NCBI RefSeq assembly: GCF_000738775.1
Contig: NZ_JPOC01000040.1
Coordinates: 1-64,000, forward strand
Origin: Prescottella defluvii
Lineage (GTDB): Bacteria; Actinomycetota; Actinomycetes; Mycobacteriales; Mycobacteriaceae
DNA length: 64,000 bases
Reading direction: 5' to 3'
Shown: positions 9,033-58,884 of the stretch, piece after piece
Layout of the letters: each line of letters begins with the position of its first letter
How positions within the stretch are numbered: the stretch's first letter is position 1
Notes under the pieces: model-generated
What the model was told of the DNA's origin: nothing
Databases searched by the model: none
Seen by the model: the letters and a program-made list of their open reading frames with translations, nothing else
Made by a program: the position numbers and the translations under genes

Positions 9033-10222
9033 CCACCGCCGAGACGATGACGGCAGACCTGCAGAGCGAACGTGTCGCGGCCATCGACAACTCCGGTTGG
9101 GGTCGCTCGTTCACCTTCTACCAACCACGCAATGCGGCGTTCTGGGTGTACCTGTTCCTGGTCGCCAGCGGAGTCCTGACGTTCTTCTCGATGCTCGCGA
9201 GCACATCCGGTGCGTACGGACGGGCGATCGCGGTCGCGGTCGTCTCGTTCACCCTGTACGGGGCGGTGTTCTGGTGGTTCACCCGCCACATCGATCGGTA
9301 TGCGCGCCAACCGATCAAGCTGATCGTCGTCGCGTTCCTGTGGGGTGGCTTCGCGGCCACATGGATGATGGCGGCCAGCGCGAACGACGCGCTGAGGAGC
9401 ATCTACGCGAAGGCCGTCGGCCAGGCGTGGTCCCTGGACTGGGGCGCCGGTCTGGCCGCACCGTTCACCGAGGAGATCGCCAAGGGGATCGGACTGCTGC
9501 TCCTGATCGCGCTGGCGCCGCGACTGGTACGGACCGCATTCGACGGGTTCATCCTGGGTGCCTTCCTCGGACTCGGGTTCCAGATCATCGAGGACATCGC
9601 GTACGCACTGAACTCCGCGGGATCCCAGTTCGGGGCCAACCCGGTGGAGGCCGCGATGTCGACCGTGTGGCTCAGAATGGCCACCGGAATCACCGCACAT
9701 ATTCTGTACAGTGCGATCTTCTGCGCCGGCCTCGTCTATCTGCTGGGCCGGCCCGGCGAACCGCGTCGGGTCGGACGGGGATTGGCCCTGATGGCGTCCG
9801 CCATGGTGTTGCACGGAGTCTGGGATTCGTCGGCCGCGCTCGCACGAGGCAACGGCGCCGTGATCCTGGTGATCATCGTCGTCGCCATTCTCGTCGCGCT
9901 GTATCTGGTGGTGCGCGTGTTCGCGATGACGGTGCCGCGCGAACGCGAGTATCTGCGGCAGATCATGGCGCCAGAGGTGGCGAACGGTGTCATCACCGAT
10001 GCCGAACTCGAAGCGATGTGTGGCGATCGCAAGGCTCGCAGGGCCTTTCGCAAGGCGCCCGCGAACCACCGCGAACGCAGACGTGCCGGATTCGTGCTCG
10101 AGGCTGCGGGCGATCTCGCGGACGAACTGGCCGGGTCGCGCGGAAGCGACACCGGCCGAGTCGAATTCGCCCGGTCGGAGGTCCGGCGGATCCGTGCCGG
10201 CGTGCCCTCGATGAATCCGTAG
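9029..10222 (+). CDS. PrsW family intramembrane metalloprotease
   Basis: This 397-residue polytopic protein carries the PrsW signature: an EE pair followed by Lys in a membrane helix (EEIAK, E148-E149), a second acidic motif (EDIAY) and conserved histidines in later helices (ITAHILYS and HGVWD). PrsW in Bacillus cleaves a membrane-bound anti-sigma factor; related bacterial proteins belong to the CPBP/Rce1-like metalloprotease superfamily. About eight membrane segments are visible, followed by a roughly 90-residue basic cytoplasmic tail. It overlaps the upstream single-pass protein by four bases. Its substrate is unknown. Confidence 0.88.
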   Translation: MTTAETMTADLQSERVAAIDNSGWGRSFTFYQPRNAAFWVYLFLVASGVLTFFSMLASTSGAYGRAIAVAVVSFTLYGAVFWWFTRHIDRYARQPIKLIVVAFLWGGFAATWMMAASANDALRSIYAKAVGQAWSLDWGAGLAAPFTEEIAKGIGLLLLIALAPRLVRTAFDGFILGAFLGLGFQIIEDIAYALNSAGSQFGANPVEAAMSTVWLRMATGITAHILYSAIFCAGLVYLLGRPGEPRRVGRGLALMASAMVLHGVWDSSAALARGNGAVILVIIVVAILVALYLVVRVFAMTVPREREYLRQIMAPEVANGVITDAELEAMCGDRKARRAFRKAPANHRERRRAGFVLEAAGDLADELAGSRGSDTGRVEFARSEVRRIRAGVPSMNP

Positions 10223-10249
10223 ATTCTGCAACGGCACGAAGCGCCGAGC

Positions 10250-10287
10250 GGTCCCGTGTACTCCTGGCGTCAGGAGTACGCGGGACC
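10250..10287 (+). terminator. Stem-loop terminator after PrsW-like gene
   Basis: Arms GGTCCCGTGTACTCCTG and CAGGAGTACGCGGGACC pair over 17 positions with a single G-U wobble around a 4-base loop. It lies 28 bases after the stop of the PrsW-like gene. There is no run of T, as is common for actinobacterial terminators. It faces the end of gatD and may serve both directions. Confidence 0.75.
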
Positions 10288-10370
10288 GGACCGCACCGAC
10301 GGTTTCCGAGTAACACTCAGGTCACACAGCTCGGGCAATTGTTGCAAATTGGATCGGCCCGTTCGAACCA

Positions 10371-10398
10371 TTGCCACGCCCACGTCCGGGCGTAGTAT
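10371..10398 (+). promoter_or_regulatory. Promoter-like element in the intergenic region
   Basis: TTGCCA (10371-10376) and TAGTAT (10393-10398) are separated by 16 bases, a plausible sigma-70-type pair on the + strand. No + strand gene follows before the gatD stop codon, so if active it would make an RNA starting near 10405. This is inferred from sequence only. Confidence 0.4.
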
Positions 10399-10545
10399 CA
10401 GTAGTGCGGATCGAGTAAGTAGTCGGTAACGGTGAAAGTCTCGTGAAACAGAGATCCGGCCGAGGATGCGAATGCATTCCCGGCCGAACCCCTGTCTGGG
10501 GTCATGCCGTGTGGCGACCGGCGTCTACGCGTCACCGGGCGGGTG

Positions 10546-11259
10546 TCAGCGCACCCGCAACCGCTCGCGGCGCAGTTGCTCCACCTCGGGCAGGTCCAGT
10601 GGTGCCAGTTCGTCCACCCCGAGGGCGCGCTTCAGCAGCAGGTCGGCCAGTTCCGGGTTCCGCGCGAGCACCGGTCCGTGCATGTACGTGCCGATCACCG
10701 AACCCTGCGTGACACCTTCCAAGCCGTCGCCGACGCCGTTGCCGACGCCGTGGGTCACCCGTCCGACCGGCTTCGCGTCCGCCCCGAGAGTCGTTCCGCC
10801 GCGGTGGTTCTCGAATCCGGACAGGGGAGCGGTCAGTCCGTCGATCAGCGGTGTCGTGATGACCTCACCGATCGAGCGGGTGGCCTGCGGGGAGGTGGTG
10901 GCGTCGAGCATCGAGACGCCGTCGACGCGCTCGCCGGACGACGTCTCGTACCAGTGCCCGAGCACCTGGATCGCCGCACAGATCGCCAGCACGGGAGCAC
11001 CACGCTCGGCGGCGCGCTGCAGACCCGGATGGGTGTTGAGATGTCGGGTCGCGAGACGCTGCGCCGAGTCCTCCGCCCCGCCGAGGGTGTAGACGTCCAG
11101 CGAATCGGGCACGGGATCGCTGAGCGTGATGTCGACGATCTCGGCGTCGTACCCGCGCATGCGCAGGCGTTGCCGCAGGATCAGGGCGTTGCCGCCGTCG
11201 CCGTACGTGCCCATGACGTCGGGCAGGACCAGGCCGATGCGGACCGTCGACTCAGACAT
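10546..11259 (-). CDS. gatD: Lipid II isoglutaminyl synthase, glutaminase subunit GatD
   Basis: This 237-residue class-I-type glutamine amidotransferase hydrolyses glutamine and passes ammonia to MurT, which amidates the D-glutamate of lipid II. The catalytic cysteine is C94 (AICAAIQ), with R128 (TRS) and H194 (TYMHG) fitting the expected substrate arginine and catalytic histidine. The start at 11259 overlaps the end of murT by eight bases (ATGTCTGA), the usual arrangement of this two-subunit enzyme. A longer in-frame start at 11298 lies inside murT and is less likely. It acts in the cytoplasm. Confidence 0.93.
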   Translation of the reverse strand: MSESTVRIGLVLPDVMGTYGDGGNALILRQRLRMRGYDAEIVDITLSDPVPDSLDVYTLGGAEDSAQRLATRHLNTHPGLQRAAERGAPVLAICAAIQVLGHWYETSSGERVDGVSMLDATTSPQATRSIGEVITTPLIDGLTAPLSGFENHRGGTTLGADAKPVGRVTHGVGNGVGDGLEGVTQGSVIGTYMHGPVLARNPELADLLLKRALGVDELAPLDLPEVEQLRRERLRVR

Positions 11260-12508
11260 CGCGGCTGTTCTCCTTCGCGATCGCGGTGTTGAGGTCACGG
11301 AACGCCGTGTAGTTGGCCAGCACCTCGACCCGTCCGGGCGGGCACGACGCGATCGCCTTCAGCGGGTCCTTCTCGAGGCTGTGTTCGACGCCCGCGTACG
11401 TCAGGCGGACCGCGAGGTCGGTGCCGCGTTCACCGGCGGCCACCACCTTGACACCCTCGAAGTGCTCGAAGCGCACGTCCCACAGCCACGACAGGTCCTC
11501 ACCGTCGGGCACCTGGCCGTTGACGGCGATGACGAGGCCGTCGACGCTGGGGTCGATCATCGACAGCGCCTCCTGCCAGCCGGCGGGGTTCTTCGCCAGC
11601 AGCATGTGCACGGAGTGCGCGCCCACCTGGACGGTGCTGTACCGGCCGGCGACCTCCTCGACGATGGATGCGGCGGCGACGGCGTCCTCCGCCTTCGCGC
11701 CCATCGCGACGGCCGCGGCCACGGCCTGCGCCGCGTTGCCGCGGTTCGCCCGTCCGGGGAGCGTCAGCTTCATCGGCAGCACCAGCCCGTCCGGGCCGTA
11801 CAGATTGTCGTCGTCGAGCCACCAGTCCGGTGTCGGCCGCGCGAAGTCCGAGCCGGTGCTGCGCCAGTTGGGGCCGTCCCACACGATCGGCTCACCGGTG
11901 CGCGGGCAACTCACCGAATCGCTGGCCCAACCGCCGCCCGCGGCCACCCAGACGACGTTCTTGCAGTCGTAGGCGACGGACGTGACCAGCACATCGTCAC
12001 AGTTCGCGATCACGAGCGCGTCCGGGTGCCGCTCGAGGCCCGCCCGCAGCTTCCGCTCGATCATGTTGATCTCGCCGACCCGGTCCAACTGGTCGCGGCT
12101 CAGGTTGAGCAGGACCACGACCTCGGGGTTCACGGCGTCGGACACGTGCGGGACGTGCAACTCGTCCACCTCGAGGGCCGCGAGGGGGGCGTTCACACGC
12201 GCAGTCAGGGCGGCGACGATGCCGGCGTCCATGTTGGCGCCGTCGGCCTGCGTCGCGACCTCGTCGAGCGTCGCCAGCGCGGCCGCGGTCATGCGGGTGG
12301 TGGTGGACTTGCCGTTGGTGCCGGTGATGACGACGGTGCGCCGTCCGCGACCGAGCTGCTCCATGAGCGTCGGATCGATCTTCAGCGCGATCAGGCCGCC
12401 GATCATCGAGCCCTTGCCGCGTCCGGCCTTCTGCGACGCCCAGGCGGCAGCGGCCGCGGCACGCAGGGCGAGGCGTCCGCGCAGACTGATCCGAGTACTA
12501 GTTCCCAC
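11252..12508 (-). CDS. murT: Lipid II isoglutaminyl synthase, ligase subunit MurT
   Basis: This 418-residue Mur-ligase-type protein has the ATP-binding loop GTNGKST (about residues 63-69), the central domain with NLSRDQLDR, and the C-terminal MurT domain. With GatD it converts D-glutamate in the peptidoglycan stem peptide to D-isoglutamine. The region that carries a cysteine zinc ribbon in Staphylococcus and Streptococcus MurT (about residues 201-236, starting SCPRTGEPIVW) has only one cysteine here, so that metal site is probably absent. murT and gatD form an operon with its promoter between 12509 and the palindrome at 12577. Confidence 0.93.
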   Translation of the reverse strand: MGTSTRISLRGRLALRAAAAAAWASQKAGRGKGSMIGGLIALKIDPTLMEQLGRGRRTVVITGTNGKSTTTRMTAAALATLDEVATQADGANMDAGIVAALTARVNAPLAALEVDELHVPHVSDAVNPEVVVLLNLSRDQLDRVGEINMIERKLRAGLERHPDALVIANCDDVLVTSVAYDCKNVVWVAAGGGWASDSVSCPRTGEPIVWDGPNWRSTGSDFARPTPDWWLDDDNLYGPDGLVLPMKLTLPGRANRGNAAQAVAAAVAMGAKAEDAVAAASIVEEVAGRYSTVQVGAHSVHMLLAKNPAGWQEALSMIDPSVDGLVIAVNGQVPDGEDLSWLWDVRFEHFEGVKVVAAGERGTDLAVRLTYAGVEHSLEKDPLKAIASCPPGRVEVLANYTAFRDLNTAIAKENSRDV

Positions 12509-47355: not shown

Positions 47356-47736
47356 ATGTCGAATCAAGTGGCGGACTGTTGTGCATCGATCGGAGGGCAG
47401 GCCATCGAGCCGGGTCAGGCCGCCGATCTTGCCCGGATGTTCAAGGCGCTCGGCGATCCGGTGCGGCTGCGGATGCTGAGCCTCATCGCCGCGCACGAGG
47501 GTGGGGAGAGCTGTGTCTGTGACATCTCGCCAGCCTTCGATCTGTCCCAGCCGACGATCTCCCACCACCTGAAGGTGCTACGGGAGGCCGGCCTGCTCGG
47601 CTCGGAGCGGCGCGGCACCTGGGTGTACTACCGGGTGATTCCGTCAGCACTGGAACAGCTTTCGGCGGTACTGTCGCCGACGGTGGGCGTCGTCGCGGGC
47701 TCGGCCTGCGCGCCGACCGTCGAGGTCGGGCTGTGA
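47356..47736 (+). CDS. arsR: ArsR family arsenic-responsive repressor (ELCVCDL-type)
   Basis: This 126-residue winged-helix repressor carries the metalloid-binding CVC motif at the start of the DNA-binding region (GGESCVCDISPAF) and the recognition helix DLSQPTISHHLKVLREAGLL. Arsenite or antimonite binding should release it from DNA and switch on its own operon. An AT-rich stretch (47328-47353), unusual in this window, lies just upstream and probably holds promoter and operator. The stop overlaps the acr3 start by four bases. Confidence 0.92.
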   Translation: MSNQVADCCASIGGQAIEPGQAADLARMFKALGDPVRLRMLSLIAAHEGGESCVCDISPAFDLSQPTISHHLKVLREAGLLGSERRGTWVYYRVIPSALEQLSAVLSPTVGVVAGSACAPTVEVGL

Positions 47737-48827
47737 CCGACGCGAACGTGCCCTCTGCTGTCGTCGGCAAGCTCTCGACACTGGATCGGTTCCTGCCGGT
47801 GTGGATCGGTGTTGCGATGATCGCCGGCCTGCTCCTCGGCCGGATGATCCCGGGACTCGGCGACGCGCTCGGTGCCGTCGAACTCGACGGCATCTCGCTG
47901 CCGATCGCGCTCGGTCTGCTGATCATGATGTATCCGGTGCTGGCGAAGGTCCGGTACGACCGTCTCGACGCCGTGACCGGCGATCGCAGGTTGCTGGCCG
48001 GTTCGCTGTTGCTCAACTGGGTCCTCGGCCCGGCGCTGATGTTCGCGCTCGCCTGGATCTTCCTGCCGGATCTGCCCGAGTACCGGACCGGTCTGATCAT
48101 CGTCGGCCTCGCGCGCTGCATCGCGATGGTGATCATCTGGAACGACCTCGCGTGCGGCGACCGGGAGGCGGCCGCCGTGCTCGTGGCGATCAATTCGGTG
48201 TTCCAGGTGATCATGTTCGCGGTTCTGGGCTGGTTCTACCTCTCGGTGCTACCGGGTTGGCTCGGCCTCGAGCAGACCACGATCGACACCTCCCCGTGGC
48301 AGATCGCGAAGTCGGTGCTGATCTTCCTGGGGATCCCGCTGCTGGCTGGGTTTCTCACCCGCCACTTCGGGGAGAAGGCCAAGGGGCGCGAGTGGTACGA
48401 GTCGACGTTCCTGCCGAGGATCGGTCCGTGGGCGCTGTACGGGTTGCTGTTCACGATCGTGATTCTCTTCGCGCTGCAGGGTGAGCAGATCACCTCACGG
48501 CCAATGGATGTCGTGCGGATCGCGATCCCGCTGCTGGCGTACTTCGCGATCATGTGGGGTGGCGGCTACCTGCTCGGCGCGGTGATGGGTCTGGGCTACG
48601 AGCGCACCACCACTCTCGCGTTCACCGCGGCGGGCAACAACTTCGAGCTCGCGATCGCGGTCGCCATCGCCACCTACGGTGCCGCATCCGGGCAGGCGCT
48701 CGCCGGCGTCGTGGGTCCACTGATCGAAGTCCCCGTGCTCGTCGGGCTCGTCTACGTCTCGCTCGCGTTGCGCAAGCGCTTCGCCCGAATCGAGTCCGCG
48801 AATACCTTGGTGTCGAAAGAGGTTTGA
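47733..48827 (+). CDS. acr3: Arsenite efflux permease Acr3
   Basis: This 364-residue carrier of the ACR3 family exports arsenite by proton antiport. About ten membrane segments are seen. The conserved cysteine of the family lies in GLARCIAMVIIWNDLACGD, and the helix TTTLAFTAAGNNFELAIAVAIA is a signature. The GTG at 47733 overlaps arsR1 (GTGA). arsC follows after four bases. Confidence 0.95.
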   Translation: MTDANVPSAVVGKLSTLDRFLPVWIGVAMIAGLLLGRMIPGLGDALGAVELDGISLPIALGLLIMMYPVLAKVRYDRLDAVTGDRRLLAGSLLLNWVLGPALMFALAWIFLPDLPEYRTGLIIVGLARCIAMVIIWNDLACGDREAAAVLVAINSVFQVIMFAVLGWFYLSVLPGWLGLEQTTIDTSPWQIAKSVLIFLGIPLLAGFLTRHFGEKAKGREWYESTFLPRIGPWALYGLLFTIVILFALQGEQITSRPMDVVRIAIPLLAYFAIMWGGGYLLGAVMGLGYERTTTLAFTAAGNNFELAIAVAIATYGAASGQALAGVVGPLIEVPVLVGLVYVSLALRKRFARIESANTLVSKEV

Positions 48828-49821: not shown

Positions 49822-50190
49822 ATGCCCAAGGCCCTGCCCATCGTCGATGTCAGTGCACCGATCTGCTGCGCGCCGGTATCGGCGGCGCCCATGAGTGACG
49901 ACGCCGCACTGCAGGTCGCGCTCCGCTTGAAGGCGCTCGCGGACCCGGTCCGGATCAAGCTCGTCTCGATTCTGCTCACCGCCGCCGGGGGAGAGGTCTG
50001 TACATGTGATCTGGCCACCAGCGTCGGACTGGCGGAGTCGACCGTCAGCCACCACCTCGGGCAACTCAGGAAGGCCGGCATGGTCGAATCGGAGCGGCGC
50101 GGCATGAATGTCTTCTATCGGGCGCGCGGCGACTCGTTGGACGCGCTTCGCGTGGTGCTCGACCCCAACTGCTGTGGTGGGGCGCGGTAG
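49822..50190 (+). CDS. arsR: ArsR family repressor, N-terminal CC type
   Basis: This 122-residue repressor has cysteines at positions 15 and 16 (APICCAPV) plus C60 and C62 (EVCTCDL), and a final NCC. Cys15, Cys16 and a third cysteine near residue 55 form the arsenite site in Corynebacterium ArsR1, so this protein is of that architecture and differs from the first ArsR in the window. The helix AESTVSHHLGQLRKAGM binds DNA. It is divergent from arsI. Confidence 0.9.
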   Translation: MPKALPIVDVSAPICCAPVSAAPMSDDAALQVALRLKALADPVRIKLVSILLTAAGGEVCTCDLATSVGLAESTVSHHLGQLRKAGMVESERRGMNVFYRARGDSLDALRVVLDPNCCGGAR

Positions 50191-50218
50191 TTCCGTGGTT
50201 CCTCGGTGTCGCAGCCTT

Positions 50219-50252
50219 GGTGATCCACCGCTTCTGCTCGTACTGGATCACC
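50219..50252. repeat. Inverted repeat after arsR2
   Basis: GGTGATCCA and TGGATCACC are exact complements around a 16-base loop, 28 bases after the arsR2 stop codon. It is a candidate terminator. The rest of the 272-base gap up to 50463 shows no convincing gene. Confidence 0.45.
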
Positions 50253-50462
50253 TTGCTGTAGGCATTCGTTGTCTGTCCGAGTCGCAGTGCCGCTCCTGGT
50301 CTCAACACGCTAACGAATATCGCTATGTGTGTGAATCGGCCACCAGGGTGCGAAGACTGGTCGGGCAGCGCGGTTGAAATGCCGTGCGGTCGAAATCCCG
50401 GAGAGGACCCCTGGATGAGCCCGACGCCCGCCACGCCTTCGCGGGGCGCGAGGTAGATCGCC

Positions 50463-51590
50463 ATGGTGACCGACGAAGTTCGCAAGCTGGGCGTCGAGGA
50501 GGAGTTCCACCTCATCGACGCGGAGACCCGTCGGCTCGTCACGCGCGCACCCGAGTTGCTCGAGCGCCTGCCGGGGGACGTCTACGTCGAGGAACTGCAG
50601 CGCTGCGTCGTGGAGGTCAACAGCGGAGTGTTCGCACACCTCGTCGATCTCCGTGCGGACCTGATCCGCCGGCGACAGGTCCTCGTCGAGGCCGCCGCCG
50701 ACCTGGGCGTCGGGGTGGTGGCCGCGGGCGCGGTGCCGCTCGCGGTGCCCGCCGAGATGGCCGTCACCGAGACCCCGCGGTATCGCCGCATGCTCGCCGA
50801 CTACCAACTCCTAGCCCGCGAGCAGCTGATCTGCGGCACCCAGGTGCACGTCGACGTCGCGGACCGTGACGAGGCCGTGCAGATCGCCAATCGCGTGGCG
50901 CCGTACCTGCCGATCTTCCTCGCCCTGAGCGCGAGTTCGCCGTTCTGGGCCGACGGCACCGACACCGGATACGCCAGCATGCGGTCCTTGGTGTGGACCC
51001 GCTGGCCCACCACCGGTCCCGCGGCGCCGGTGCAGTCCGCCGCGGAATACGACCGGCTGATCGCCGACCTCGTCGGCAGCGGCGTGATCAGCGGCCCCGG
51101 GATGGTCTACTTCGACCTGCGACCGTCCGATCGGTATTCGACGCTCGAGCTGCGGGTGTGCGACAGCTGCCCGTCGGTGGACACGATCGCGCTCGTCGCC
51201 GGGCTGTTCCGGGCCCTCGTCGATCGCGAGGCCGTCGCCCTCCACGAGGGGCGACCGCCACTGCAGGTTTCGCCGACGCTGGTGCGCGCGGCCATGTGGC
51301 GCGCCGCGCGTTCGGGCCTCGAGGGCGACCTCGTGGACGTGGAAGCCGTGGCGCCGCGACCCGCGTCGCAGGTGGTCGAGGGGCTGATCCGGTCGCTGCG
51401 GCCCCACCTCGAGTCCACCGGCGACTGGGACGTGGTCTCCGAACTGGCGGACGTCACCCTGCAGGTGGGGAGTTCGTCGGCGCGGCAGCGGCGGAGCCTG
51501 CGTAGGCGCGGGAGCCTGACCGACGTCGTGGACCTGCTGGCGGCCGAGACCCGAGGAGGAGTGGCCGAGTATGTGTGGCATCTGCGGTGA
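50463..51590 (+). CDS. YbdK/GCS2-type carboxylate-amine ligase
   Basis: This 375-residue ligase of the glutamate-cysteine ligase 2 (YbdK) family is an ATP-dependent enzyme that joins a carboxylate, usually glutamate, to an amine. Motifs are GVEEEFHLIDAETRRL near the N-terminus, CGTQVHVDV and YFDLRPSDRYSTLELRVCD. It is the first gene of a four-gene unit and overlaps the next gene by 20 bases. That partner is an amidotransferase rather than glutathione synthetase, so glutathione synthesis is unlikely. Confidence 0.9.
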   Translation: MVTDEVRKLGVEEEFHLIDAETRRLVTRAPELLERLPGDVYVEELQRCVVEVNSGVFAHLVDLRADLIRRRQVLVEAAADLGVGVVAAGAVPLAVPAEMAVTETPRYRRMLADYQLLAREQLICGTQVHVDVADRDEAVQIANRVAPYLPIFLALSASSPFWADGTDTGYASMRSLVWTRWPTTGPAAPVQSAAEYDRLIADLVGSGVISGPGMVYFDLRPSDRYSTLELRVCDSCPSVDTIALVAGLFRALVDREAVALHEGRPPLQVSPTLVRAAMWRAARSGLEGDLVDVEAVAPRPASQVVEGLIRSLRPHLESTGDWDVVSELADVTLQVGSSSARQRRSLRRRGSLTDVVDLLAAETRGGVAEYVWHLR

Positions 51591-53355
51591 GGTTCGTTTC
51601 GACGGGGCGACGCCCGACGTCGCCGCGGTGGCACGGATGACCGACGCGATGGTGACCCGCGGGCCGGATGCGGCCGGCGCGTACGCACAGCAGTCGGTGG
51701 CGTTCGGCCACCGCCGCCTGTGCATCATCGACCTGTCGGCTCGGGGCGGTCAGCCGATGGTCGACAGCGAACTGCGGTTGTCGCTGGTGTTCAACGGTTG
51801 CATCTACAACTACAAGGAGTTGCGGGCGGAGCTGCAGCAGGCGGGTTACCGGTTCTTCTCGACCGCGGACAGTGAAGTGGTGCTCAAGAGCTTCCACCGC
51901 TGGGGGGCCGACTGCGTGCAGCGGTTCAAGGGAATGTTCGCCTTCGCCGTCCACGAGATCGATTCGGGTGTGGTGACGTTCGCGCGTGATCGGTTGGGGA
52001 TCAAGCCCCTGTACTTCACCGAGCAGCCGGGGCGGTTGCGATTCGCGTCGACGCTGCCGGCGCTGCTGCACGGAGGTGGCGTCGACACCACGATCGATCG
52101 TGTCGCCCTGCACCACTATCTGAGCTTCGCCGCGGCCGTGCCGGCGCCGCACACCATGTTCGAGGGTGTCCGCAAGCTGCCGCCGGCGACGATCCGGGTG
52201 GTGCGTCCGGACGGAACGGCCACCGAAAGGCAGTACTGGGAACCGCTGTTCGAGCCGTCGCCCGAGCGGGTGTCGTGGACGGCGGAGCAGTGGCAGCACG
52301 CCCTGATGGACTCGCTGCGCACGGCGGTGTCCCGCCGGATGGTCGCCGACGTCCCAGTGGGGGTGCTGCTGTCGGGTGGCATCGATTCCAGTCTGCTCGT
52401 GGCCCTGCTGGCCGAACAGGGGCAGCGGGACCTGGCGACCTTCAGTATCGGATTCGACTCGGCCGGAGGAGAATCGGGAAACGAGTACGTCTACTCCGAT
52501 CTCGTGGCCCGGACGTTCGGCACCGATCACCGGCAGATCCACATCGATCCGTCGCGGCTCCCGGCGGCGGTGCCGAAGGCGATCGAGGCGATGAGCGAGC
52601 CGATGCTCAGCCACGACTGCGTGGCGTTCTTCCTGCTGTCGGAGGAGGTCTCCAGATCCGTCAAGGTGGTCCAGTCCGGCCAGGGGGCGGACGAGATCCT
52701 CGGCGGCTACCACTGGTATCCCCCGCTGGTCGGGGTGGCGCGGGAACAGTCCGCGGAGGCCTACGCCAAGGTGTACTTCGACCGCACCCACGACGACATC
52801 GCGGCCCTGGTCGATCCCGACTACTGCCTCGATCGCGACGTCAGTACCGAATTCGTGGTCCGGCACCACCGGGCGCCGGGCGCCGACACCGCCGTCGACG
52901 CCGCACTGCGACTCGACACGACGGTGATGCTCGTGGAGGACCCGGTCAAGCGGGTCGACACGATGACGATGGCGTGGGGACTCGAGGCGCGGGTGCCGTT
53001 CCTCGACCACGAGTTCGTGGAGTTGGCGGCCACCTGCCCGACGGACCTCAAACTGGCGGGCGACGGCAAGGGTGTGCTGAAGGAGGCCAGTCGCGGCCTG
53101 CTCCCGAACGCGGTGATCGACCGGACCAAGGGCTACTTCCCGGTACCGGGCATACGGCACCTCGAGGGTGGTGTCCTCGCCCTCGTGCAGGACGCGCTGA
53201 GCAGTCGCGGCGCCCGGGAGCGACGGCTGTTCCGGCCCGAGGTGCTCGACGCACTGTTCGCCTCCCCCAACGAGATCCGCACCGCCCGTGGCGTGAACAC
53301 CCTGTGGCAGGTGGGTCTGCTGGAGATGTGGCTGCAGGCGATGGAGCGGCTGTGA
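51571..53355 (+). CDS. Asparagine-synthetase-like amidotransferase (N-acetylglutaminylglutamine amidotransferase type)
   Basis: This 594-residue protein has an N-terminal glutamine amidotransferase domain starting with the catalytic cysteine (MCGICGEV) and a C-terminal AMP-forming synthetase domain with the pyrophosphate loop LLSGGIDSSL. The sequence is closest in feel to the subfamily that makes the terminal amide of the osmolyte N-acetylglutaminylglutamine amide, not to housekeeping AsnB. The start lies inside the ligase gene (GAGGAG upstream) and the stop overlaps the peptidase start as GTGA. All four genes are thus probably translated together. Confidence 0.85.
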   Translation: MCGICGEVRFDGATPDVAAVARMTDAMVTRGPDAAGAYAQQSVAFGHRRLCIIDLSARGGQPMVDSELRLSLVFNGCIYNYKELRAELQQAGYRFFSTADSEVVLKSFHRWGADCVQRFKGMFAFAVHEIDSGVVTFARDRLGIKPLYFTEQPGRLRFASTLPALLHGGGVDTTIDRVALHHYLSFAAAVPAPHTMFEGVRKLPPATIRVVRPDGTATERQYWEPLFEPSPERVSWTAEQWQHALMDSLRTAVSRRMVADVPVGVLLSGGIDSSLLVALLAEQGQRDLATFSIGFDSAGGESGNEYVYSDLVARTFGTDHRQIHIDPSRLPAAVPKAIEAMSEPMLSHDCVAFFLLSEEVSRSVKVVQSGQGADEILGGYHWYPPLVGVAREQSAEAYAKVYFDRTHDDIAALVDPDYCLDRDVSTEFVVRHHRAPGADTAVDAALRLDTTVMLVEDPVKRVDTMTMAWGLEARVPFLDHEFVELAATCPTDLKLAGDGKGVLKEASRGLLPNAVIDRTKGYFPVPGIRHLEGGVLALVQDALSSRGARERRLFRPEVLDALFASPNEIRTARGVNTLWQVGLLEMWLQAMERL

Positions 53356-55235
53356 CCGCCGGAGTCTCGACGGAACGCGAAGGCGGACAGCATATCCGCT
53401 TCACATCGGGTGCGTCGGTGTCGCCGGATGCGACCGGATTCGCCCACATCGTCGACGACGGGGGATACCCGTGGGCCGTGCAGCGGTTCCTGTCCGGCCG
53501 GCACGGCAGCACGGACCGTCGCGTCGAGTTGCCCGTGCCCGGCCCCGTCACGCGGATCGTGCATTCGGCGGACAGCGGGTGGCTCGCGTGCCAGGTCGCG
53601 CCGCACGGTGGCAACCGCACCCAGGTGTGGGTCGTGCAGACCGACCCGCAGGACCGCTCGGCCCGCCTGGTCGGGTCACAGCGCGCGGTCTCGACCGAGC
53701 TGATCGGCTGGGACGGGAACCTGGTGGTGCTCACCGCGACCGACGAGGACGGTGTGGCCGAGGCCAGGTTGGTGGATCCACAGAGCCAGGACATCGTCGT
53801 CCTCGACCGTCGTGTCGGCAGCTTCCTCGTCGACGCGTGGGACGGATCGGCGCTGCTGCGGGTGGGCCCGCGCGGGCATCGTGAACTGCTGCTGCAGCGC
53901 GCCGACGGAAGTCGGATCCCGCTGCTGCCCGCAGACTTCGGGTCGACCACCGATGCGGGGGTTCTCCTCGACGACCACCGCCTGCTGGGTGTGCTCGGCC
54001 AGCATCGGTCGCCCTGGGCATCGAGCGAGGGTGAGCCGGACAAGTACATCCGCGCGCTCGTGCGCAGCGACAACGGGGCCGAGTTCGCGCGACTGCTCGG
54101 TGTGGCGGCGTCCGAGCGTGGCGTCTCCTACCGGGTGCTGGCCGAGCGGGACAACTGCGGACTCGACGAATTCGTCGTCAGTGACGACCACAGCACCGTG
54201 GCACTGCTGTGGAACTACAAGGGCCTGAGCGAATTACAGATCCTGCATCTCGCGGACGGCACGTTCGATTCTCCGATCGGTCTGCCGGGACTGGTGGCGT
54301 CGGAGCTGAGCATCAGTGCCGACGGCTCGTTGCTCGCAGTCACGGTGGAGGGGCCCGGGATGCCGCCGTCGGTGGAGATCGTCGACCCGCGGACGGGTGA
54401 GTGGGGTCCGGTGGAGCCGGCCCGGACCCGGATCGCCCGGGCCGACGCCCCGCTGCTCGTCGAGCTCACCGCGCGCGACGGGCTGCCCCTGACCGGGTGG
54501 CTGTACCGCGCGCCGGGGAACGAACCCGGTCCGGTGATGCTGTGGTTCCACGGCGGACCGGAGCTCCAGGAACGCCCCGGATACAGCGACTACTTCCCGG
54601 CGCTGGTCGCGGCCGGGATCACCGTCTTCGCGCCGAACGTGCGCGGCTCGGGCGGATTCGGCCGCACCTTCATGCACGCCGACGAGCGGTACGGCCGATT
54701 CGCGGGCATCGACGACGTCGCGGACTGTGTCCGCCACGTCGTCGACAACGGCGTTGCCGACCCCGCGCGGATCGCGTGCGCCGGGCATTCGTACGGCGGC
54801 TATCTGACGTTGGCGGCCCTGACGTTCCACCCCGACCTGTTCGCGACCGGTATCGCCGTCTGCGGCATGAGCAACCTCGAGACCTTCTACGCCAACACCG
54901 AGCCGTGGATCGCGGCCGCCGCCTATCCCAAGTACGGGCACCCCGAGCACGACCGGGAACTGCTGGCGGAACTGTCGCCGATCCACCGCGTCGACGCCCT
55001 GCGGGCACCGGTGCTGGTGGTGCACGGCGCCCACGACACCAATGTGCCGGTCAGCGAGTCGGAACAGGTGGTGGCGTCGGTGCGGGCCCACGGCGGTGTC
55101 GCCGAACTGCTGCTGTTCGACGACGAGGGCCACGACATCGTCAAGCGGGAGAACCGGGACACGCTGGCGAAGACGATGGTGAAGTGGCTGACCAGCCGGC
55201 TGGCCCGGTCCGGCGCCCGGGTGTCGGCGATCTGA
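53352..55235 (+). CDS. S9 family serine peptidase (prolyl oligopeptidase/acylaminoacyl peptidase type)
   Basis: This 627-residue protein has an N-terminal beta-propeller of about 370 residues and a C-terminal alpha/beta hydrolase. The nucleophile is in GHSYGGY, the acid in GAHDTNVP and the base in EGHDI. Enzymes of this group act on small peptides, often blocked at the N-terminus, in the cytoplasm; there is no signal peptide. The GTG at 53352 overlaps the amidotransferase stop by four bases. It may trim or degrade the peptide made by the two upstream enzymes. Confidence 0.9.
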   Translation: MTAGVSTEREGGQHIRFTSGASVSPDATGFAHIVDDGGYPWAVQRFLSGRHGSTDRRVELPVPGPVTRIVHSADSGWLACQVAPHGGNRTQVWVVQTDPQDRSARLVGSQRAVSTELIGWDGNLVVLTATDEDGVAEARLVDPQSQDIVVLDRRVGSFLVDAWDGSALLRVGPRGHRELLLQRADGSRIPLLPADFGSTTDAGVLLDDHRLLGVLGQHRSPWASSEGEPDKYIRALVRSDNGAEFARLLGVAASERGVSYRVLAERDNCGLDEFVVSDDHSTVALLWNYKGLSELQILHLADGTFDSPIGLPGLVASELSISADGSLLAVTVEGPGMPPSVEIVDPRTGEWGPVEPARTRIARADAPLLVELTARDGLPLTGWLYRAPGNEPGPVMLWFHGGPELQERPGYSDYFPALVAAGITVFAPNVRGSGGFGRTFMHADERYGRFAGIDDVADCVRHVVDNGVADPARIACAGHSYGGYLTLAALTFHPDLFATGIAVCGMSNLETFYANTEPWIAAAAYPKYGHPEHDRELLAELSPIHRVDALRAPVLVVHGAHDTNVPVSESEQVVASVRAHGGVAELLLFDDEGHDIVKRENRDTLAKTMVKWLTSRLARSGARVSAI

Positions 55236-55249
55236 CGGGGGTGCTGCCC

Positions 55250-56377
55250 ATGCGTATCGACAACGACCGGCTCGTCGCGTGGCGGCGGGATCTGCACGCC
55301 CACCCCGAACTGTCCTTCGCCGAGTTCCGGACGACCGCGCTGGTGCGCGATCACCTGGCTTCGCTCGGGCTCGATCCGGTCGTCCTGCCGGCCGGCACCG
55401 GCCTGTGGTGCGACGTCGGGCCCGACACCCCGACGTGCGTCGCGTTGCGGGCCGACCTCGACGCGCTCCCGCTGACGGAGGCCACCGGTGCGCCGTACGC
55501 GTCCACGGTCGACGGCGTGAGCCACGCGTGCGGACACGACGCACACACCGCGATGCTTCTCGAGGCCGCGACCGCGCTCGTCGCCGAGCCACCGCGGCAG
55601 CGGGTGCGGTTGATCTTCCAGCCGGGGGAGGAGACGACCCCGGGAGGTTCGCTCGACGTCGTCGCGGCCGGTGCCCTCGAGGGTGTCTCGCGAATCTTCG
55701 CCCTGCACTGCGCACCTCAGCTCGAGGTCGGCCAACTCGCCACCCGCGCGGGCCCGATCACGTCGTCCGGTGCGATGCTCACGGTGCGACTCTCCTCCCC
55801 GGGCGGGCATTCGGCACGTCCGCACCTGACGGGCGATCTCATCCACGCTGCGGCCGTACTGGTGACCGGGCTGGCGTCGGTGCTCGATCGCCGACTCGAC
55901 GCCCGCACAGCCACCGTGCTGACGTGGGGTCGCATCCGGGCCGGCCGGGTCGGCAACGCGATACCGGAGTCGGGGGAACTGGTGGGCACGCTGCGCAGTG
56001 CGTCGCACCAGACGTGGGCGACGGTGGAACCACTGGTGCGACGCGCCGTCTCGGACCTGCTCGCACCCTACGGGGTGGACCACGAACTGGACTACGTGCA
56101 GGGCGTACCGCCGGTGGTCAACGACCCCGAGGCGACCGGCGAACTGATCGCCGCGATCGCGTCCGTAGTGGGTCTCGAGAATCTGGCCGAGGCCGGACAG
56201 TCCAGCGGCGGTGAGGATTTCGCGTGGTACCTCGAACACGTTCCCGGTGCCATGGCGCGGCTGGGTGTCTGGGACGGCACCAGCCCGCGGCACGATCTTC
56301 ACACGCCGAACTTCGACCTGGACGAGCGTGCCCTCGTGTACGGCGTGCGGACCCTCCTCGCGCTGGCGTACGCCTGA
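55250..56377 (+). CDS. M20 family amidohydrolase
   Basis: This 375-residue M20D-type metallohydrolase (relatives: N-acyl-amino-acid amidohydrolases, hippurate hydrolase) has the metal-binding motifs HAHPELSFAE, ALRADLDALPL, HACGHDAHTAMLL, QPGEET and a final GGEDFAWYLE. It removes acyl or aminoacyl groups from amides. It lies 14 bases after the S9 peptidase gene as the fourth gene of the unit. The ATG at 55250 is used; a GTG nine bases upstream is possible. Confidence 0.92.
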   Translation: MRIDNDRLVAWRRDLHAHPELSFAEFRTTALVRDHLASLGLDPVVLPAGTGLWCDVGPDTPTCVALRADLDALPLTEATGAPYASTVDGVSHACGHDAHTAMLLEAATALVAEPPRQRVRLIFQPGEETTPGGSLDVVAAGALEGVSRIFALHCAPQLEVGQLATRAGPITSSGAMLTVRLSSPGGHSARPHLTGDLIHAAAVLVTGLASVLDRRLDARTATVLTWGRIRAGRVGNAIPESGELVGTLRSASHQTWATVEPLVRRAVSDLLAPYGVDHELDYVQGVPPVVNDPEATGELIAAIASVVGLENLAEAGQSSGGEDFAWYLEHVPGAMARLGVWDGTSPRHDLHTPNFDLDERALVYGVRTLLALAYA

Positions 56378-56408: not shown

Positions 56409-56996
56409 TCAGGACGGGTGGTGTGGTCGGGTGGCGGCCAGCACGATTCCGACGATTCGGTCCAACTCCTCAGCGGATGCTCTGCGGCCGAGCATCATCG
56501 GGCCCATGAACAAGGGGGCGGCCAACGCATTCACCATGGCCTCGGGCGTGTGGTCGGCATTGGCCTCGCCTCGGTCGATCGCGCGCTGCGCCATCTGTCG
56601 CCACGCATCGAGAACGGGCTTGTACTGCTCGAGGACGAGCTGGTTGAAATCGGGGTAACGCCGGCTCGCCATGAGTGCCGCCGAGGCGACCTCGACGGGG
56701 CTGTCCGCGTACTCGGCGATCTGTTCTGCGAAGGCGCGGACGTCGGACTGCCACGACCCCGTGTCCGGCGGGTCGACCTGGCGGACGTGCATCGACACCG
56801 CCTCGACGAGTAGATCGTTGTGCGTGGGCCACCACCGGTAGATCGTCTTGCGGCTGACGCCGGCGCGGGCAGCGACCTCGACGGTGGTGAAGTCGAGGCG
56901 TCCTTCGGCAAGAAATCCCAGGCATGCCTCGCCGACCGCGGCACGTACCTTCTCGCTCCGGCCACCGGTTCGCACCCGCTCGGGCTTGTCGCTCAA
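56409..56996 (-). CDS. TetR family transcriptional repressor
   Basis: This 195-residue protein has an N-terminal TetR helix-turn-helix (DFTTVEVAARAGVSRKTIYRWWPTHNDLLVEAV) and a helical ligand-binding domain with a TetR_C-type end. It is divergent from the FAD-oxidase gene and most likely controls it through the imperfect palindrome at 57023-57044. The start is a TTG at 56996 with AAGGAG upstream; no ATG is available. The inducer is unknown. Confidence 0.9.
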   Translation of the reverse strand: MSDKPERVRTGGRSEKVRAAVGEACLGFLAEGRLDFTTVEVAARAGVSRKTIYRWWPTHNDLLVEAVSMHVRQVDPPDTGSWQSDVRAFAEQIAEYADSPVEVASAALMASRRYPDFNQLVLEQYKPVLDAWRQMAQRAIDRGEANADHTPEAMVNALAAPLFMGPMMLGRRASAEELDRIVGIVLAATRPHHPS

Positions 56997-57022
56997 CGCC
57001 GTCTCCTTCTCCGCAACAAACT

Positions 57023-57044
57023 GTTAACGACACATGGTGTTGAC
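57023..57044. promoter_or_regulatory. Candidate TetR operator
   Basis: Half-sites GTTAAC (57023-57028) and GTTGAC (57039-57044), the second matching the complement of the first at five of six bases, frame the centre GACACATGGT. They lie in the 193-base gap between the TetR gene and the oxidase gene. The size and position fit a TetR-family operator. Confidence 0.4.
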
Positions 57045-57189
57045 TTAGCCTGGTCGGCGATGGATGATTTCCGTCACACGCAGCCGAACAGGCCGCTCCA
57101 GCCTCTCAGAGCATTGCGGCCGTGACGGCATCGCGATCGAGCCTTGCGCGTGGCGAAGTCGGAACCAGACCAGTCAACGAGGAGAATTG

Positions 57190-58434
57190 ATGCACGATGA
57201 AGGTTGTTTCGATGTCGTCGTCGTCGGGGCGGGGCCCCTGGGTGCGGCCACCGCGCGGCACCTGACGGAACGTGGCGCCACGGTGCTCGTCGTCGGACCG
57301 GACGAGCCCTCGGGGTTCGCGGACCACGACGGAGTGTGGGCCGGCTACTACGACCAGGGGCGACTGGCGCACGTCCTCGAGGTTCCGCTCATGACCTCGA
57401 TGCTGGCGATGAGGTCGATCCGGCGCTTCGCCGATCTGCAGGAACGTACCGGTGTGCAGTTCGCGACGCCGCGGCAGTCGCTGACGGTCATGCCCGACGA
57501 CTCCGAGGGGGGCGGGCTCGCCGACTGGTTCAATCGAGGACTGCTCGCTGACAACGCCGCCGATCTGAACGTTGCCGTAGAGCAATTCAGCGCCGAAGAG
57601 TTGCGGCGGGAATACCCGGACCTGCGGTTCGCGCCCGGCCACGTCGGCATCGTGCAGCGTGACGCCTTCATCGTGAATCCGCGCGGGTTGGTGCAGGCCG
57701 AACTGGCCGCCGCGGTCGCCCAGGGCGCCGTGCTGGTCCGCGACGTGGTCGACAGCGTCGAACGCACGGAGCAGGGGGTTCGCGTCGTCTCCCGGTCGGG
57801 ACCAGCCTGGCGTGCCGGAAAAGTGGTCATCGCAACGGGTGCCGCGACCAACGTCGGTGGTCTCCTTCCGAAGTCGCTGGACATGCGGACCTACGGTGCG
57901 ACGGTCGTCCTCGTCGAGGTGTCGGATCCGGCCGAGTTCGACATTCCAGCCATGATGTACCTGAAGGCATCCGGTGAGGAGATGGTCTTCGGCGGAATCG
58001 TCATGTCGCCGCTGCAGTATCCGGATGGCCGGTGGTATCTGAAGTGTTCCGGTAGAAGCCTTCTCGACAACCCGCTCGATTCCGCCGAGGCGATCGCGCG
58101 CTGGGTGCGCACCGGCGGCCGCCGGCAGGACATCGACGAATCACTGGATCTGCTCGCCGAACTGCTCCCGGGAAAGACCCTCGGTGCCGCCCGTACGCGG
58201 CCGTGCATGGTGTGCGAGACGCCGACCGGACTGCCCTACATCGATCTGGTGGACGAGCGCACGGTTGTGGCGATCGAGGGCGAGCGGGGTGCAATGGCCG
58301 CCGACGAAATCGGCCGACTCACTGCAGGTCTCGCGATCGACGGGGCATGGACCGACGGGATACCGCACGCGGCCTTCCAGGCTCGGTGGGCAACGGACGT
58401 CGTGTCCCCGCTGCGGGAGGTCGCCACGGCCTGA
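57190..58434 (+). CDS. FAD-dependent amino acid/amine oxidoreductase (DAO family)
   Basis: This 414-residue flavoprotein of the DadA/sarcosine-oxidase type has an N-terminal Rossmann motif (DVVVVGAGPLGAATARHL) and a C-terminal FAD-contact region (GLPYIDLVDERTVVAIEGERGAMAADEIGRLTAGLAI). Enzymes of this family oxidise amines or D-amino acids to imines. The ATG at 57190 has GGAG five bases upstream. A Rid protein gene follows after 36 bases. The substrate cannot be read from the sequence. Confidence 0.87.
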   Translation: MHDEGCFDVVVVGAGPLGAATARHLTERGATVLVVGPDEPSGFADHDGVWAGYYDQGRLAHVLEVPLMTSMLAMRSIRRFADLQERTGVQFATPRQSLTVMPDDSEGGGLADWFNRGLLADNAADLNVAVEQFSAEELRREYPDLRFAPGHVGIVQRDAFIVNPRGLVQAELAAAVAQGAVLVRDVVDSVERTEQGVRVVSRSGPAWRAGKVVIATGAATNVGGLLPKSLDMRTYGATVVLVEVSDPAEFDIPAMMYLKASGEEMVFGGIVMSPLQYPDGRWYLKCSGRSLLDNPLDSAEAIARWVRTGGRRQDIDESLDLLAELLPGKTLGAARTRPCMVCETPTGLPYIDLVDERTVVAIEGERGAMAADEIGRLTAGLAIDGAWTDGIPHAAFQARWATDVVSPLREVATA

Positions 58435-58470
58435 CCCGGTCAATGTACCCACCTAGAAAAGGACCCCCAG

Positions 58471-58884
58471 ATGTTGTCTTCGAACGGCCCAATCGTGCCT
58501 CCGGAGTTGGACCACGTATACCGGCACTGGCATATCGCTCCTGCCGTCCGAGCCGGGGACTTCGTCATTTGCTCAGGAGTGCTCGGGCAGCATCCCGACG
58601 GCACCATCCCGAATGACCCCTCGACGCAGTTCACGCTGGCTTTCGAAAACCTCGAACGTATCCTCGCTGCCGCCGGCGCCGTGCTGGCCCATGTGGTCGA
58701 ACTGGTGACCTTTCACACGGACCTGGAAGGCGACCTGCGCGCCTTCACGGCGGTCAAGGAACGGTTCATTCGCGAGCCGTACCCGGCGTGGACCGCGGTC
58801 GGAGTAGCCCATCTCGGAGCCGGCTCGGCCGGGAACCCGCGAGTCGAGATGAAGGCCACCGCCTATCTCGCAGACGCCTCCTGA
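58471..58884 (+). CDS. Rid family (YjgF/YER057c) protein lacking the catalytic arginine
   Basis: This 137-residue trimer-forming Rid-fold protein has GDFVICSGVLGQHPDGTI, DPSTQFTLAFENLERILAAAGA and VELVTFHTD. Archetypal RidA deaminates reactive imines with an arginine in a PARxxV motif; here that motif reads YPAWTAV, with tryptophan in place of the arginine. It therefore probably belongs to a Rid subfamily without classical imine deaminase activity. Its place behind an imine-producing flavoprotein still suggests action on that product. Confidence 0.88.
   Translation: MLSSNGPIVPPELDHVYRHWHIAPAVRAGDFVICSGVLGQHPDGTIPNDPSTQFTLAFENLERILAAAGAVLAHVVELVTFHTDLEGDLRAFTAVKERFIREPYPAWTAVGVAHLGAGSAGNPRVEMKATAYLADAS

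Follow-up and report, generated by a model that had tools for sequence, protein, structure and literature searches.

The window analysed here, a 64,000-nucleotide stretch of the Prescottella defluvii genome (contig NZ_JPOC01000040.1), contains an operon of four same-strand genes (50463..56377, +) encoding a GCS2 ligase, the amidotransferase AsnO, an S9 hydrolase and an M20 hydrolase. On balance, we favour the view that these genes specify an actinobacterial amide-metabolite pathway that has been reduced and is related to the one for N-acetylglutaminylglutamine amide (NAGGN): an amide made by the GCS2 ligase would be capped by AsnO and turned over by the M20 and S9 hydrolases. Comparison of gene content has shown what the full pathway of relatives would comprise, namely a predicted double ligase in which GCS2 is joined to an ATP-grasp domain, together with AsnO and S9, to which some members of the window's family add M20. 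The first gene of the window operon (50463..51590, +) encodes a 375-residue carboxylate-amine ligase of the GCS2/YbdK family, which matches the entire PF04107 profile (182 bits) as well as NF010041 (364 bits, cut-off 332) and for which the nearest solved structures by sequence are 1tt4 and 1r8g (YbdK). AsnO (51571..53355, +) is a glutamine-dependent amidotransferase of 594 residues, with class II glutamine amidotransferase and Asn_synthase domains, that scores 934.8 bits against TIGR03104 (cut-off 570.1); its structure model has a mean pLDDT of 90.6. The third gene (53352..55235, +) has a GTG start and encodes a 627-residue serine hydrolase of the prolyl-oligopeptidase/acylaminoacyl-peptidase type (PF00326, 161 bits), nearest to amino-acyl and acylaminoacyl peptidases, in whose sequence what we take to be the serine, aspartate and histidine motifs are visible. 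The last (55250..56377, +), with an ATG start, encodes a 375-residue M20 amidohydrolase (TIGR01891, 320 bits, cut-off 154) whose solved relatives include YxeP, an IAA-amino-acid hydrolase homologue and N-alpha-acyl-glutamine aminoacylase. All four frames are open in the window; GCS2 and AsnO overlap by 20 bases, AsnO and S9 by 4, and 14 bases lie between S9 and M20. The profile matches and exact coordinates thereby confirm the four-gene ligase/amidotransferase/two-peptidase operon, with these same junctions, that had been proposed in the original prediction.

To determine how far this arrangement is conserved, we compared AsnO loci across relatives. TIGR03104 is matched over its cut-off in 22 of the 61 genomes of a relatives search, in 46/396 genomes of the phylum and in 8/14 of the genus, each tally including the window genome (G000). 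The neighbourhood comparison covered 100 loci, consisting of 20 of the 21 other relatives (the 21st, G008, was taken separately) and the best 80 named loci among the matches listed. Amongst the relatives' loci, 15 have GCS2 with AsnO and S9, four have the NAGGN synthetase Ngg and one has S9 and ATP-grasp without GCS2; nine of the 15 carry ATP-grasp without M20, one carries both and five carry M20 without ATP-grasp. The best 80 named loci comprise 24 with Ngg, 33 with a GCS2-ATP-grasp protein (29 of these with S9), 12 with GCS2 alone and S9, two with ATP-grasp and S9 without GCS2, seven with S9 only and two with none of these; in four loci (L103, L140, L143 and L148) the sequence 5' of AsnO is very short or absent. 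Hence GCS2, AsnO and S9 occur together in 15/20 relatives' loci and in 41 of the 56 Ngg-less loci among the best 80 named, a co-location that exceeds chance. M20 stands beside these three genes in 6/20 relatives' loci and in 0/80 of the best named loci. The expectation of conservation as a group therefore holds for GCS2, AsnO and S9. M20 was seen to accompany them in no family but that of the window, so the full set of four genes has a narrow distribution. Clustering of predicted neighbours found no further gene with a constant position across the lineages having S9; two loose clusters (18 and 13 loci) have scattered positions.

The GCS2 protein of most relatives is larger than that of the window. 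In 43 of the 60 loci with GCS2, the protein continues into a circularly permuted ATP-grasp domain, which Pfam recognised in three loci and tblastn in the others. The three GCS2-ATP-grasp proteins examined have 865-897 residues and score 380-441 bits against PF14403, and the solved structure nearest to the domain by sequence is 3n6x, a putative glutathionylspermidine synthase. One congener (G006) is the sole AsnO-bearing genome of the genus that keeps ATP-grasp on GCS2; its open reading frame runs on into a circularly permuted ATP-grasp domain of ~500 residues at the place corresponding to 51543..51590 (+) of the window. In G001 and G002, ~1.35 kb is gone and the last residues of the domain (…KDTW…) remain, fused to GCS2. 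Relative to G006 the window has lost ~1.5 kb and contains no recognisable remnant of the domain, the old stop codon is absent and the GCS2 frame terminates 20 bases inside AsnO; judged from this comparison, the deletion left the 20-base overlap as its scar. Whole-genome searches with PF14403 (E <= 0.001) found no match in the window genome, in G001, G002, G009, G010 and G012 or in the 79%-complete assembly G008, and a match was found in G006. The six reduced GCS2 proteins (window and five congeners) form one clade (97/94), which groups with G006 and G489 (99/95); the clade so enlarged joins the proteins of four full operons from another genus (99/98). The simplest account would be that the common ancestor of the six reduced genomes underwent a single deletion. 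The original prediction that a GCS2 ligase takes the place of a synthetase is corrected by these observations: relatives fuse GCS2 to ATP-grasp, and the window is in a secondary, reduced state.

The domain is missing from the operon in other lineages too. G489, from the genus of those four full operons, has GCS2, AsnO and S9 without it, and GCS2 alone also lies beside AsnO and S9 in Streptomyces, Nonomuraea and Microbispora. No PF14403 match over the cut-off was found in any of the four named Streptomyces genomes, in any of four genomes that belong to one genus or in the Nonomuraea and Microbispora genomes; the GCS2 of one member of that four-genome set (G252) falls in the Streptomyces clade. 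We also considered whether the domain is decaying in G006, where 2/48 near-invariant positions differ, both kept by the five other copies compared, although the choice of positions drew partly on those rows, and where dN is 0.282 for ATP-grasp versus 0.119 for GCS2. Decay is not claimed, because an intact pair shows the same faster change (0.088 versus 0.042, twice that of GCS2) and the position-defining rows are not independent.

Parallel changes in AsnO, with exceptions, accompany the absence of ATP-grasp from its operon. The window AsnO carries A187, A189, Y402 and R573, which are common to the seven genus proteins compared. L573 is kept in 28/28 Ngg-partnered, 49/51 ATP-grasp-partnered and 5/5 unclassified AsnOs, and is changed in all seven proteins of the window lineage (G489 included), in 12/12 Streptomycetaceae and in all four of a Streptosporangiaceae set. 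Position 189 is likewise changed in all three lineages, and F402Y is found in 7/7, 11/12 and 0/4 of them, respectively. As a control, we examined 15 ATP-grasp-bearing clades, in which a shared changed conserved site was seen in 0/455 triples and two or more shared sites in 1/105 pairs; the control is tempered by the finding that 4/45 mixed pairs (a reduced and an intact lineage) share two or more changed sites and that position 573 is altered in an intact clade represented by one row. Hypergeometric values for these sites are not relied upon, since they take columns to be equal and lineages to be independent, and one lineage (C) combines genomes that have the domain in trans with genomes that lack it. 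In an unrooted tree confined to AsnO proteins (83 rows), from which 18 of the 100 loci were omitted as near-duplicates or partial, the Ngg-partnered AsnOs make up one side of a branch with a support of 94. The window genome has a separate Asn_synthase gene on another contig (G000:C9), the housekeeping AsnB, which scores 270 bits against TIGR03104 and thus falls below the cut-off; set against the 935 bits of the operon protein, this supports the proposal of a NAGGN-type amidotransferase distinct from the housekeeping AsnB.

The genes that survived the deletion are maintained. Mean ratios of nonsynonymous to synonymous substitution rates (dN/dS) over the 15 pairs of the six reduced genomes are 0.117 for GCS2, 0.103 for AsnO, 0.114 for S9 and 0.129 for M20, and the window GCS2 matches 73/73 near-invariant positions of its family. 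All four proteins stay under purifying selection.

A link between GCS2 and M20 is provided by natural fusions. In G004, a genome of the same genus with no AsnO, a 799-residue frame joins GCS2 directly to M20. Full-length frames of this kind occur in 13/301 genomes of the family including G004, the other 12 being 71-83% identical to it, and there are two partial ones besides. TIGR03104 is matched over the cut-off in none of the 13 genomes, and no AsnO, S9 or ATP-grasp gene was detected within stretches of ~18 kb at the 10 fusion loci fetched. With 10 of the 13 included, the fusions form one clade in both the GCS2 tree (97/95) and the M20 tree (98/94), and the M20 proteins of operons and fusions separate from a paralogue that is ~56% identical (100/100). 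From 36 pairs of nine loci, omitting pairs with dS outside 0.05-1.2, dN/dS is 0.206 for the GCS2 half (35 pairs) and 0.133 for the M20 half (30 pairs). The fusion is the best sign that M20 may act on, or supply, the product of GCS2, and it strengthens the logic of synthesis plus turnover that had been suggested for the operon. A gene for a gamma-glutamyltransferase of 657-662 residues (TIGR00066, 361 bits, cut-off 358) lies upstream on the same strand at seven of the 10 fusion loci (L256-L262), all from one genus, and at none of the 100 AsnO loci; a divergent EgtC-like amidotransferase (84 bits, below the cut-off of 219) is encoded beside one fusion in another genus. Both neighbours fit gamma-glutamyl chemistry without proving it. 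M20 is also found without a fusion or operon partner, in G599 and G027, and 4/14 genomes of the genus have neither arrangement.

Family membership suggests how the pathway could operate. The GCS2 ligase would use ATP to join the carboxylate of an amino acid to an amine, most likely through the gamma-carboxylate of glutamate, which is the known chemistry of the GCS2 family. AsnO would convert a free carboxylate of this product to a primary amide with glutamine, and S9 and M20 would cleave the product, returning amino acids, so that the pool could rise and fall. Loss of the ATP-grasp domain probably leaves a product that differs from, or is smaller than, the one made by the full pathway, and AsnO may have been adjusted accordingly. 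The likeliest role would be a stress-protective one resembling that of a compatible solute, in which the cell would hold a solute pool with its own off-switch. More tentatively, we raise the possibility that operons of this kind specify a second type of amidated compatible solute beside NAGGN, made by GCS2, capped by AsnO and widespread in Actinobacteria, by means of a modular assembly line that has repeatedly been pared down, from double ligase to single ligase to a GCS2-M20 synthetase/amidase, each step giving a different product still under selection and with AsnO retuned at 189 and 573.

The closest characterised system is the NAGGN pathway. In the excerpts of two reports that concern it, Ngg acetylates glutamine and joins it to a second glutamine, AsnO then amidates the product, and the genes are arranged as asnO-ngg(-peptidase), as in Sinorhizobium meliloti and in PA3459-61 of Pseudomonas aeruginosa (PMC5563000, PMC8070244). 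The window operon resembles these loci, as far as those excerpts describe them, in that its amidotransferase belongs to the same family, far over the NCBI cut-off, and in that synthetase, amidotransferase and peptidase are encoded together (PMC8070244, PMC5563000). It differs in having GCS2 in place of Ngg, an N-acetyltransferase joined to ATP-grasp, and S9 and M20 in place of the glutamyl aminopeptidase, and in the AsnO segment 570-575 and residues 402 and 573. The peptidase of the known trio belongs to family M42; by Pfam, the hydrolases of the operon are S9 and M20 with no M42 glutamyl aminopeptidase, a search confined to the operon. The operons of Mycobacterium, Frankia, Micromonospora, Pseudonocardia and other Actinobacteria that encode GCS2-ATP-grasp, AsnO and S9 share with the window related GCS2, AsnO and S9 proteins in the same order and on the same strand; the presence of M20 and the absence of circularly permuted ATP-grasp set the window apart. 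On gene content, then, the operon is neither a NAGGN operon, since Ngg is missing, nor a full GCS2-ATP-grasp module, since ATP-grasp is missing, and it may work like a pared-down version of both. EgtA and the YbdK-type ligases are likewise members of the GCS2 family, but the window protein falls in a different NCBI subfamily (NF010041); TIGR03444 (EgtA) is not among its matches and is matched by L196, a separate locus of the same genome. As the genome has genes for EgtA and for a further YbdK-type ligase at other loci, the GCS2 of the operon is an extra ligase. In E. coli, the bifunctional glutathionylspermidine synthetase/amidase unites in one polypeptide the ligase and amidase that set an amide pool. 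The GCS2-M20 fusions may share this working principle; the domains are unrelated and no membership is claimed.

Several other explanations were weighed against a reduced pathway with a product of its own. The full and reduced pathways might share one product, a host ligase encoded elsewhere supplying the missing step in trans, as the GCS2-ATP-grasp proteins kept away from AsnO in Planobispora and Yinghuangia would allow; the search of the window genome for such ligases was confined to PF14403 and Ngg. We regard this as unlikely, given that neither PF14403 nor Ngg was found over the cut-off in the window genome and that AsnO changed in parallel across lineages. That the operon still makes NAGGN, with GCS2 having replaced Ngg as the dipeptide synthetase, is in our estimation decidedly unlikely. 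The window AsnO shares 58.8% identity with its S. meliloti counterpart encoded beside ngg, N-alpha-acyl-glutamine aminoacylase is among the solved relatives of M20, and under strict criteria no site distinguished the AsnOs partnered by Ngg from the remainder, relaxed criteria yielding only 570, 572, 574 and 575. F402 and L573, however, are kept in 28/28 Ngg-partnered AsnOs and changed in the window, and the genome contains no circularly permuted ATP-grasp; its best match to the Ngg synthetase model TIGR03103 scores 31.8 bits against a cut-off of 569, on which ground NAGGN synthesis proper was rejected. The operon also lacks an acetyltransferase, and NAGGN would therefore not be makeable by the known route.

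Very unlikely, in our judgement, is a decaying remnant of a pathway dead since the loss of ATP-grasp. Piecemeal loss has indeed recurred, leaving GCS2-M20 only, M20 alone or neither arrangement, and the region upstream of the window operon carries an indel, but dN/dS is about 0.1 for all four genes across six genomes that diverged after the loss, on which ground a pure relic was rejected, the window frames are open with every near-invariant GCS2 residue kept, and GCS2 alone with AsnO and S9 is found in Streptomyces too. Least probable of all is a thiol/redox or metal buffer, in which GCS2 would make gamma-Glu-Cys-like peptides and the operon would belong with the ars genes. The GCS2 family is annotated as glutamate-cysteine ligase, and the adjacency to ars genes noted earlier is real, an ACR3 gene (47733-48827) lying before the operon. 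The ACR3 family occurs beside AsnO in five of the seven genus loci compared and at none of the other loci in the comparison; the arsenic link was rejected, as the adjacency is confined to the genus, and the other GCS2-family ligases encoded in the genome also speak against a thiol role.

The reduced-pathway interpretation that we favour has to accommodate observations that weigh against it, beginning with the lack of an acetyltransferase mentioned above. No substrate was found for this GCS2 subfamily. In the unrooted tree, the AsnOs of Streptomyces fall with the Ngg type (support 92) and apart from the other GCS2-partnered AsnOs, so that GCS2-partnered AsnOs as a whole are not shown to be one clade. 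G006 has the AsnO signature yet keeps ATP-grasp, G489 has a stand-alone PF14403 protein elsewhere in its genome, and Yinghuangia and two Planobispora, which are among the loci with S9 only, have altered AsnO sites although their genomes encode a GCS2-ATP-grasp protein at another place. The AsnO changes thus go with the absence of ATP-grasp from the operon, G006 being an exception, rather than strictly with its absence from the genome. The gamma-glutamyltransferase neighbour of the fusions is confined to close relatives (88-100% identical). Finally, GGTT-N-GGGTA, which we take to be a SigF/SigB-like motif, occurs 90-164 bases upstream of the GCS2 start in six congeners (L050, L052, L054, L056, L057 and L058) and is missing from the corresponding region of the window (50163-50463), where the indel falls at that place. 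It was not used: 6/68 operon upstream regions contain it, compared with a mean of 0.45 in shuffles, all six are from congeners, and it was found in 0/10 fusion upstream regions and 0/28 Ngg loci.

The TIGR03104 name, 'N-acetylglutaminylglutamine amidotransferase', is also applied to AsnOs without Ngg in the operon, for example in Streptomyces fungicidicus, and is probably too narrow. As no Ngg was found beside AsnO in 72 of the 100 loci, genomes may be credited with an osmolyte that they do not make while a related metabolite is overlooked. The series of lineages with a double ligase, a single ligase and a ligase-amidase fusion constitutes a natural experiment on the dispensability of individual steps, and it brings the product within reach of tests with a few purified enzymes. 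Our literature search found, among the records listed, no paper describing a GCS2/AsnO/S9 operon or a GCS2-M20 fusion. The study of amidoligases by Iyer et al. 2009 may mention GCS2-ATP-grasp neighbourhoods, and we make no claim to priority for the full operon. Two leads were set aside: the Frankia alni desiccation proteins FRAAL1888/2171, named NAGGN enzymes by the authors who described them, were not matched to this operon, and ABAGG of Micromonospora profundi, an anthranilate-glycine-glycerol compound, is irrelevant as a product lead.

Downstream of the operon and outside it, the window (56409-58884) encodes a TetR-type regulator (-), a DAO-type FAD oxidoreductase (57064-58434) and a RidA-like protein (58471-58884). 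The relative taken separately (L270 in the 79%-complete G008) has an operon copy whose AsnO, S9 and M20 frames are broken at several points, and here sequencing error and decay are indistinguishable. The reverse of the window state, AsnO, S9 and ATP-grasp without an adjoining GCS2, occurs in L161 and L167 (Modestobacter) and in L053, from G054, whose whole genome gives as its GCS2 match only a 24-bit fragment. A stand-alone related GCS2 is encoded on a Mycobacterium branderi plasmid (L274, 7989-9128), with no AsnO or M20 annotated nearby, close to genes for CsbD-family, DUF6131 and DUF5994 proteins, and in a relative of Streptomyces fungicidicus the operon adjoins an OsmC-family gene, each neighbourhood offering a hint only. 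Two Kocuria loci (L126 and L135) carry an orphan AsnO at about 10001-11767, with no Ngg, GCS2, ATP-grasp or S9 detected nearby, and its 570-575 segment, HTPLRS, is partly Ngg-like.

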